Origin: an uncultured Faecalicatena sp.
GTDB taxonomy: Bacteria > Bacillota > Clostridia > Lachnospirales > Lachnospiraceae
Reading direction: 5' to 3'
Length of the DNA stretch: 64,000 bases
NCBI GenBank assembly: GCA_948468385.1
Contig: CAOKHZ010000007.1
Coordinates: 92,127 to 156,126, forward strand
Both the position numbers and the translations under genes were made by a program. Below the pieces are notes generated by a model. That model did no database searches. It saw only the letters and a program-made list of their open reading frames with translations, and was not told where the DNA came from. Of this stretch, positions 45,204 to 48,939 are shown piece by piece; positions within the stretch are counted from its first letter, which is position 1, and every line of letters starts with the position of its first letter.

Positions 45204-46325
45204 ATGGAGAAGACATTTGACGTAATCGGGGTGGAGGATTTGATTATGGATTTTGCGCTCCAGATTAACAAGATACCGAAAACGGACGGGATGTCCATGA
45301 TAAAGGATAGCTGCTGGGCGGGCGGTGGAAATGCGTCGTCGGCCATCGTGGCACTTTCCAGGCTGGGGGCAAAATGTGCCATGGTGGGAACGACCGGAAA
45401 CGACGCTTATGGGAATTTTTGTCTGGAAGACATGAAAAGAAACGGAGTGGATGTGTCCCATATCAAGCAAGTGGAAGGTGATACGACGCTGTGCATTTGT
45501 CTGGCGGAAACGGAGACGCAAGGGAGGAGCTTTCTTGGCAAATTGGGCGTGCAAGGAGTGATGACTTCCGAGGAAGTGGGGGAAGATTTCATTCGCGACT
45601 GCAAGGTCATCCACCTAAGTTGCATGCCGTCTCCGGCCCAGGTCGCTGCCACCTCGTTTGCCAAGAAACATGGCGTGGAAATATCCTTGGACGCGGGGGC
45701 TTTTTTTCCGGGGGCAAAAGAGCTGGCAGAGCAAGCGGACATTTTAATTATGTCGGAGAATTTTTATGGCGGATTGTTCGGCGAAGACAAAAACTATTGT
45801 GAAAATTGTAAAAAACTGGTGGAAAAGGGTGCGAAAATCGCGGTGGTGACGTTGGGAAAGAAAGGGTGCGCCGGCGCGGACAAGGACGCAAGTTTTGAAC
45901 TGGATTCTTTTTCCGGCGCGGAAATCGTGGACACGACCGGGGCAGGAGACGTGTTCCATGGGGGATTTTTGTATGCGTACTTGTATCGGTACAAAAAGGA
46001 TGGGTATACCTTGTCGGACGCAAAGCGTCCGCTTGCGCGAAGCGCGTCAGATGCGGGATGCCCGGATGGGTATACCTTAACGAATGCGAAGCATTCGCCT
46101 GCCCCGCAAGGGCATGTATTAAGGGGTGCCCTTGGGTATACCTTGAAGGATTGCGCGCGCTTTGCCAGTGCGGTTTCATACATTAATTGCACCACTCTGG
46201 GAGGAAGGCCCGGCATTCCCACGCTGGAGATGGTGGACACGTTTTTGGAGAATGGCGTCATTTTGGAAGGTGATATTGCGCAGAGGAAAGAGTTTTATCG
46301 GAATGGAATTTTTGAATGGAGGTAA
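45204..46325 (+). CDS. PfkB-family sugar kinase with in-frame repeat insertion
   Basis: 373 aa from ATG 45204 (GAGGTG 7 bp upstream). The N-terminal substrate part reads SCWAGGGNASSAIVALSRLG, and the catalytic motif DTTGAGDVFHGG (Asp of GAGD as base) is near residue 248. It phosphorylates a ketose or related sugar. Immediately after the catalytic helix, two 22-residue units encoded by 66-bp palindromic repeats are inserted (46002-46133). The native sequence resumes at GYTLKDCARFASAVSYI. Family members are about 310-330 aa, so the extra 44 residues explain the length. They lie between two helices near the active site; activity is not assured. Confidence 0.85.
   Translation: MEKTFDVIGVEDLIMDFALQINKIPKTDGMSMIKDSCWAGGGNASSAIVALSRLGAKCAMVGTTGNDAYGNFCLEDMKRNGVDVSHIKQVEGDTTLCICLAETETQGRSFLGKLGVQGVMTSEEVGEDFIRDCKVIHLSCMPSPAQVAATSFAKKHGVEISLDAGAFFPGAKELAEQADILIMSENFYGGLFGEDKNYCENCKKLVEKGAKIAVVTLGKKGCAGADKDASFELDSFSGAEIVDTTGAGDVFHGGFLYAYLYRYKKDGYTLSDAKRPLARSASDAGCPDGYTLTNAKHSPAPQGHVLRGALGYTLKDCARFASAVSYINCTTLGGRPGIPTLEMVDTFLENGVILEGDIAQRKEFYRNGIFEWR
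46002..46144 (+). repeat. Two 66-bp palindromic repeat units inside the kinase gene
   Basis: GGGTATACCTT occurs at 46002, 46068 and 46134, exactly 66 bp apart. Each unit contains small hairpins: GGACGC-aaa-GCGTCC and GCGC-gaa-GCGC in the first, GAATGC-gaa-GCATTC and GCCCC-gca-AGGGC in the second. Both arms of the first hairpin change together between units, which points to selection on structure. Confidence 0.9.
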
Positions 46326-47821: not shown

Positions 47822-48811
47822 ATGGGATTTCATTTTTGGTATCAGGAATTGGAAAAAGAAGCCTTTATTCGTCTGGGGTGCGACAAGGATGAAAAGCCGT
47901 GGATGAGCGTGGACGTGTATCCGGGCATGGGATTTAAGACGGCGGGGTTGTGTTACAAGGGTGAATGGCTGCAGCCTTATCATCCGGAGTGGTCGCCCTT
48001 GCTTCAAAAAGAAACGTTTGGAAACACGGTTTTGTTTCCCACGCCAAACCGGGTACGAAATGGCGTGTTCACGTTCCAGGGAAGACGGGTGGAAATGCGA
48101 AGGAATGATATTTTGCAAACTCAGCATGGCCTGGCTCAGAGTGGTTCCTGGCGCGTGACAAACCTTTCGAAGGCGGACGAGGACGTTTTTATTACGGCGG
48201 AATTTTGCATTTGCCCGGGGGATGAAAGTTATCAGGCATTTCCTTATGCTTCTCGGCTTACGGCGACGTACGTGCTCACGGCTTGCGGACTGACGTGCCG
48301 GTATGGGGTGCAAAATCTGGGAAATGATTCCATGCCTTTTGGATTTGGGCTGCATCCGTGGTTTCTCCTGCCAAAGAAACCGGAAAAAATCAGCGTGCGC
48401 GTGCCTGCGGATTATTGTTACGAGACAACTCTGGATTTACTTCCAACCGGACGTATGATTTCGGTAAGGGAAAATGCGGAATTTGACCTGCGTGAATTTC
48501 GTCCGGTGAGAAGTTTGGATTTGGACACGGTGTATCTGACCAGGGGACAAGACATGGCAATTTGTTATAAAGACAGGGGATATCAGCTTAAAATATCTCA
48601 TTCCTCGGAATTTATGGCAGGAGTCGTGTTTACCGCGTTTAACAAGGGAATGGAAAAGACGGGTTACGAGGCGTTCTGCGTGGAAAGCCAGACTTGTTGT
48701 ACGGATGCCATCAACATGTACGAAAAAGGATTTGAGAATAGCGGGTTAATGATATTAAAGCCGGGAGAGGCGCAGGAAGGGTATGTGAGGTATACATTGA
48801 CGGACGCGTGA
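47822..48811 (+). CDS. Aldose 1-epimerase-like protein
   Basis: 329 aa. It matches the galactose mutarotase fold: NRVRNGVFTFQGRRV, then a catalytic His in QHGLAQSG and the second in FGLHPWFLLP. A Glu near the C-terminus in CVESQTCCTDAINMY would be the base. It equilibrates sugar anomers for the isomerase. The last codons (YTLTDA) and the stop are supplied by the palindromic repeat at 48790, so the natural C-terminus was replaced. ATG is 6 bp after GGAAGGAGAGG. Confidence 0.88.
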   Translation: MGFHFWYQELEKEAFIRLGCDKDEKPWMSVDVYPGMGFKTAGLCYKGEWLQPYHPEWSPLLQKETFGNTVLFPTPNRVRNGVFTFQGRRVEMRRNDILQTQHGLAQSGSWRVTNLSKADEDVFITAEFCICPGDESYQAFPYASRLTATYVLTACGLTCRYGVQNLGNDSMPFGFGLHPWFLLPKKPEKISVRVPADYCYETTLDLLPTGRMISVRENAEFDLREFRPVRSLDLDTVYLTRGQDMAICYKDRGYQLKISHSSEFMAGVVFTAFNKGMEKTGYEAFCVESQTCCTDAINMYEKGFENSGLMILKPGEAQEGYVRYTLTDA

Positions 48812-48939
48812 GCGTCCGCTGGCGCGAAGCGCATTTGATGTGGGATGCCCGGATGGGTATACATTGACGGACGCGTGAGCGTCCGCCGGCCCCGCAGGGG
48901 CATGCGTTAGGGGATGCCCGGATGGGTATACATTGACGG
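48790..48939 (+). repeat. Two palindromic repeat units after the epimerase gene
   Basis: GTATACATTGACGG occurs at 48790, 48857 and 48926, giving units of 67 and 69 bp. Both units carry GGACGC-gtga-GCGTCC. The order, a GCGCGAAGC hairpin unit then a CCCCGCAGGGG hairpin unit, is the same as in the kinase gene. The first unit contains the epimerase stop codon (48809-48811). Confidence 0.9.

Follow-up and report, generated by a model that had tools for sequence, protein, structure and literature searches.

Short covarying palindromic repeats in frame within a sugar kinase and other genes of a Lachnospiraceae genus: a probable mobile element family resembling Rickettsia palindromic elements

The DNA analyzed here, hereafter the window, is a 64,000-nucleotide stretch of the genome of an uncultured Faecalicatena sp. 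(GenBank assembly GCA_948468385.1, contig CAOKHZ010000007.1, positions 92,127 to 156,126 of the forward strand), and it carries a run of sugar-metabolism genes coding for an aldolase, a kinase, a fucose-isomerase-like protein, an epimerase, and an aldo/keto reductase. An earlier note, made from the letters alone, had described two 66-bp units lying in frame inside the PfkB-family kinase of a gut-type Firmicute, flanked by a common motif and forming hairpins whose arms differ between the units yet remain paired. The description is accurate on each of these points: the motif GGGTATACCTT matches exactly at 46002, 46068, and 46134, leaving two 66-bp units between three copies; the frame of 375 codons stays open through both; hairpin 1 has the arms GGACGC/GCGTCC in the first unit and AATGC/GCATT in the second, different in sequence and paired in both; and the host belongs to the Lachnospiraceae (Table 1).

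The Pfam PfkB match covers kinase residues 43-263 and ends just ahead of the insert, the units of which lie at G000:C7:138133-138198 and G000:C7:138199-138264 in the coordinates of the source genome (G000). Their 5' parts are 79% alike over 39 nt, flank included. Subtype A, as in unit 1, consists of TACCTTGACGGACTCGAAGAGTCCGC followed by TGGCGCGAAGCGCATTTGATGTGGGATGCCCGGATGGGTA, while subtype B, as in unit 2, has the same first half and another second half (subtype alignments of 20 and 10 units from the same genome); since the kinase array joins A to B, it is no plain tandem duplication. In the main frame the predicted peptide of such an insert is YTLxDxxxPLARSxxDxGCPDG.

Table 1. Positions of the kinase gene, its array, and the second array in the window
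Feature	Position	Strand	Basis
PfkB-family sugar kinase gene with insert, 375 aa	45198..46325	+	open frame; Pfam PfkB 2.9e-41; insert-free orthologues
Kinase array: three GGGTATACCTT junctions and two 66-bp units	46002..46144	+	
Unit 1, subtype A, TACCTT...GGGTA, 66 bp	46007..46072	+	covariance model R1, 94.1 bits
Unit 2, subtype B, 66 bp; 5' half as in A, 3' half different	46073..46138	+	R1, 44.9 bits; subtype alignment
TATA of the left junction, target duplication	46005..46008	.	single TATAC here in both orthologues
TATAs of the other two junctions of the kinase array	46071-46074 and 46137-46140		
Second array, unit 1, subtype A, 67 bp	48793..48859	+	
Second array, unit 2, subtype B, 69 bp	48860..48928	+	

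A second array (48789-48939) lies 2.6 kb downstream of the first in the same gene run, its unit 2 being followed by an apparent 5' stub of another unit that extends to about 48939. The TGA at 48809-48811, in a hairpin loop of the first of its units, terminates the upstream aldose-epimerase gene (47822-48811; Pfam Aldose_epim).

Both arrays are members of a dispersed family. With the kinase region as query, BLASTN gave 41 matches up to E 10 in the 4.25-Mb source genome, at about 25 loci by our own grouping of the matches. The search with the unit and its covariance model that the earlier note had proposed returned 43 units with a subtype A model at E <1e-4; many copies of the family stand in frame in other genes. 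Nine of 12 genomes of the genus carry units, with 143, 46, 43, 43, 16, 6, 5, and 3 copies besides the 43 of the source genome, and three have none. Among 299 Lachnospiraceae genomes, one per genus and the source genome included, 29 matched at E 1e-3 with the first model and 35 with a model built from a wider set, which takes in weak hits of the first; copy numbers across the family are lower bounds because only 17 candidates per genome were scored. The source genome was the sole match among 246 genomes of the order (R1 at 1e-5) and 341 of the class (R3 at 1e-5); these draws also included genomes of the same family, none of which matched at 1e-5, so that absence from other families holds only as far as sampled. 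Unit length in the family is mostly 60-72 bp. BLAST with the element gave zero matches in plasmids and, in phages, one match of 29 bases (E 9e-3). Rfam models matched nothing around the window copies up to E 1 and, in eight loci at E 0.1, gave a single match, a cobalamin riboswitch (RF00174; L050 1248-1439, genome G231) about 60 bases from a unit. The family is a palindromic repeat dispersed in both intergenic and intragenic places, as protein-coding palindromic elements of the Rickettsia palindromic element (RPE) kind are.

With the flanks included, each kinase unit outdoes every one of 200 dinucleotide shuffles in folding. The z scores are -3.47 and -3.79 for RNA; for DNA they are -4.36 on one strand of unit 1, -3.65 on the other, and -3.55 in unit 2. 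The effect is less striking for the bare 66-bp consensus units (z -1.83 and -2.08). With TATA flanks, unit 1 is predicted as both RNA and DNA to form three hairpins closed by GGTATACC/GGTATACC, and unit 2 forms two hairpins at lowest energy. The hairpins covary strongly. In an alignment of 143 units (three genomes), both sides have changed in 14 of the 15 pairs and 93.7% of cells are paired; double changes number 231, compared with 64.1 +/- 6.8 for shuffles and 10-46 for slid controls. A wider set of 69 units gives 99 double changes against 18.1; both alignments were fitted to the model and therefore lean towards the structure. An earlier, independent alignment of 20 units has double changes at six of 15 pairs.

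Comparison of the kinase with homologues, also proposed in the earlier note, shows the insert to be absent from close orthologues. In G304, a genome of the same genus, and in Lachnospiraceae bacterium isolate A96_90.MI.DSS (L111), which share an identical kinase gene, the site reads RYKSGTYSYTIKDC, and in G309 it reads RYKNIKYNYTTKMC, in each case with one TATAC and no insert. The segment would have been ordinary protein sequence had all close homologues carried it with no relation to other repeats; instead they lack it, and it is related to dozens of repeats in the genome. The kinase has gained 42 residues rather than 44 because two codons before the site differ as well. Directly before the GTATACC of unit 1 stands GGATGG (45998-46003), which matches the element's own 3' end; together with the two codons missing relative to the orthologues, it may be what an earlier unit or gene conversion left behind.

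The cleanest empty site is that of an FGGY kinase (L015), where both relatives read CTTTA-TATA-GCTTG and the source genome reads CTTTA-TATA-C...G-TATA-GCTTG, a gain of 66 bp with the TATA duplicated. At a rhamnosidase site (L014), G309 is empty, the source genome holds one unit (a gain of 66 bp), and G304 holds two in opposite orientation. The TATA duplication is an upper bound, of 4 bp at L015 and 4-5 bp at L014; target site duplication of the kind that marks miniature inverted-repeat elements (MITEs) is present at these two sites and weaker or unclear elsewhere. At a further six sites (L006, L010, L017, L019, L020, and L023) a relative is empty or reads differently, and the junction differs beyond the element. 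An ATPase-like gene (L003) has three units in both the source genome and G304, and the second array of the window lies at the same position in these two genomes, so that both are older insertions. Near-identical units, zero to one base apart, occur in unrelated genes and at different loci: a single base separates unit 1 of the kinase from one located where an ABC transporter gene ends, and likewise the unit of L014 from that of L015. As read from these orthologue alignments, the family has moved since the close species split. Of 177 arrays, 108 have TATA on the left, 91 on the right, and only 61 on both sides, which points to a loose target rule or to decayed copies; the TA dinucleotide background in the fetched loci is 5.7%.

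Arrays were counted as intragenic where the frame stayed open for no fewer than about 30 codons ahead of them and 20 beyond and had a Pfam match or an orthologue with such a match, the Pfam comparison covering part of the spanning frames. By this definition 25 of 99 arrays in the genus are intragenic (9/28 in the source genome, 8/20 in G304, 4/45 in G303, and 4/6 in G309), or 21/93 without G309, the sample of which contained one gene already known to be occupied; in a sampling that gave precedence to better-scoring copies throughout, G303 contributed 40 regions with 69 of its 143 units, G304 20 regions with 31 of 46, and G309 six with 10 of 43. In seven other genera, represented by 74 regions chosen in the same way, the corresponding figure is one of 78 (an RmlD gene, L296 in G214), and the difference between the genus and the other genera is marked (Fisher p = 2e-6, with orthologue-shared arrays non-independent). 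Among the host genes are those for PfkB and FGGY kinases, rhamnosidase, RluA, a histidine kinase ATPase domain, an ABC ATPase domain, a Mur ligase, a radical SAM enzyme, and an MFS transporter; stop-free insertion in frame within conserved genes and empty sites in their orthologues, both of them traits of RPE-like elements, are found here. Left out of the count were tail fusions (L002, L004, L010, L027, and L028), a Fur N-terminus, and three G303 frames that have no Pfam match (L200, L210, and L226); L283 in G231, from the other genera, coding in appearance and likewise with no Pfam match, is also uncounted. The units seen inside genes include those in a Mur ligase (L172), an ATPase-like protein identified by orthology (L174), a BlaR1/transpeptidase protein (L178), and the ATPase domain of an ABC transporter (L208).

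Since 66 bp is 22 codons and several frames are usually stop-free, a gene that receives a unit can stay open; on average, units are open in 2.9-4.3 of six frames, more than base-shuffled units in every genome. Length does not suffice for gene invasion. In G289, eight of 14 units measure 72 bp and none of 12 arrays lies in a gene, which rules out a multiple of three as the whole cause. The 61-bp units of G104 and the 64-bp units of G111 form 13 and nine arrays, respectively, with none in a recognisable gene and, in G111, one spanning frame that has no Pfam match. The TATA occupies codon phase 1 in 21 of 25 insertions; TATA in genes is mostly in phase 1 anyway (53/81 and 105/174), so that insertion phase says little, and what remains is a strand bias. 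Insertions in phase 1 run 18 in sense to three in antisense (p 0.0015), or 15 to two without repeated sites (p 0.0023). In three of the four genomes most units have both the sense and the antisense frame open; the exception is G303, with an open antisense frame in only 41% of units. Leaving G303 out gives 15 to three (p 0.0075), or 12 to two without repeated sites (p 0.013).

Arrays in three genomes of the genus provided 50 pairs of neighbouring units. Of these, 47 share orientation, and in only six is the neighbour the nearest relative. Identity between neighbours is clearly above random, and slightly so, only in G303: the observed value was reached or exceeded in six of 2000 permutations there, in 213 in G000, and in 391 in G304. 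Neighbours that keep orientation and are rarely most similar indicate that most arrays were built by the arrival of different members. Recent tandem copying occurs too, as equal-scoring neighbours in G104, a genome of another genus, indicate: of five 61-bp units at L253 (1013-1317), four consecutive ones score 58.1 bits, and of five at L255 (939-1243), three neighbours score 57.7 bits. Opposite orientations within an array were found at L176, L194, and L222 in the genus sample and once in G289.

Taken together, these comparisons make it very probable that the kinase insert consists of two copies of a palindromic mobile element, non-autonomous and MITE-like, that works like the RPEs. The element would be about 62 bp long and, with a duplicated 4-bp TATA, add 66 bp net; its unit would form a three-hairpin, cloverleaf-like fold closed by the palindrome GGTATACC, which a transposase or recombinase acting in trans may recognise. 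A new element would tend to enter the TATA junction made by an earlier copy, in the same orientation, and so give rise to arrays, while selection would purge insertions that break genes and leave tolerated ones as peptide inserts, in the kinase probably in a surface loop after the GAGD helix. A bolder form of this model, in which insertion into the element's own TATA junctions keeps orientation, cassette-like, on a folded strand and, in one genus, a family otherwise lying mainly between genes has turned gene-invading with a favoured sense peptide, as the sense excess among phase 1 insertions would suggest, is conceivable and doubtful on balance. That the array is an ordinary tandem repeat, a local duplication of kinase sequence (GYTL) unlinked to mobile DNA, could be suspected from the host motif GGGTATACCTT standing as a direct repeat at each end; the 55 bp between motifs match dozens of loci in the genome, and the units differ in subtype. 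Dispersed copies and empty sites refute this reading, to which we assign next to no probability. A repeat that no longer moves by itself, with ectopic recombination or gene conversion among copies yielding arrays and new sites, is in our judgement unlikely. Such exchange would keep orientation and mix subtypes, as the 47 like-oriented pairs and their seldom nearest neighbours would have it, and the GGATGG before unit 1 is what conversion could leave. Against it stand the four opposite-orientation arrays and the sites L015 and L014, where first insertions into naked sites with TATA duplication call for an insertion step rather than conversion.

The probable mobile element might alternatively be moved by a REP/RAYT system, in which an IS200-like tyrosine transposase mobilises palindromes. 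Short covarying palindromes, some families of which are also intragenic according to the account of REPs in PMC3733652, are common ground. The source genome (assembly 94% complete) has no match to Y1_Tnp (PF01797, E 1e-5), nor does G307 with its 43 units, and G302 has five such matches and zero units. A GTAG or CGTC tag in the arrangement usual for REPs would also be lacking here. REP/RAYT is refuted as far as the assembly of the source genome reaches, and we regard it as very improbable. An insertion sequence sharing the element's ends was sought by eye between neighbouring units at L245 and L273, and no transposase-like open reading frame was seen there. A separate question concerns the compensatory changes, which template switching that mends quasi-palindromes, rather than selection for folding, might have made. 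Template switching could produce paired arms without function; set against this, all three helices covary, genus- and family-wide, and single positions show between two and six kinds of pair. We consider this origin quite improbable.

The comparison with known systems supports the likeness to RPEs that the earlier note had drawn, as a likeness of behaviour judged by description. RPEs are described as short palindromes found between genes or in frame in conserved protein genes, with a recurrent peptide (PMC2229807, PMC10969869); intergenic and in-frame genic placement and a recurrent peptide, here known from sequence comparison, are held in common. RPEs measure 105-146 bp (PMC2229807) or about 150 bp (PMC10969869), and the table of PMC2229807 enters their target duplication as '?', whereas the present units are mostly 60-72 bp, duplicate TATA, form same-orientation arrays of mixed subtype, and reside in Lachnospiraceae, features that set them apart as far as these descriptions go. 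The regions of 171-843 bp resembling Wolbachia palindromic elements (WPE) reported in PMC4224334 are likewise in frame and stop-free, in several repair genes, but are longer and belong to a host of another phylum. The MITEs ERIC/RU-1, RUP, and Correia/NEMIS are given in PMC2229807 as non-autonomous, shorter than 200 bp, with TA ends, target duplication, and terminal inverted repeats of 7-24 bp, some having open frames fused to genes; the ends of the present element are alike, by eye, only over TATACC/GGTATA, and its duplication is TATA. REPs measure 20-40 bp. They include a GTAG class associated with transposase genes and some intragenic members (PMC3733652); like the GTAG- and CGTC-tagged REPs, the present units are small palindromes and some are intragenic, and they differ from them in length and in the lack of a Y1 transposase match in the source genome. 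A literature search by title and opening of the abstract returned no description of this family.

Palindromes that code for protein in frame are best known from obligate intracellular bacteria, with ERIC-type elements and intragenic REPs as the examples elsewhere in the accounts cited (PMC2229807, PMC10969869, PMC3733652). The present family extends RPE-like behaviour to a genus of Lachnospiraceae whose genomes measure about 4-5 Mb. Its empty sites are precise, close species have reached different stages (a site without a unit, with one, with two, or with opposite orientations), and relatives of the element in other genera stay mostly outside genes. Whether such elements create protein or are merely tolerated thereby becomes accessible to comparison and experiment. 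In G309 a rhamnosidase carries a pair of units (L322 935-1066), and the same rhamnosidase site in the source genome (L103), a tenth intragenic case there that lies outside the 9/28 count, holds at the place of the second G309 unit, YTLPDSQNSLVQDASAAGNSDV, a decayed unit, YVLPDSQNSQVQSASAAGDSDV (L103 1521-1586), which by its sequence appears to be an old insert becoming ordinary protein sequence.
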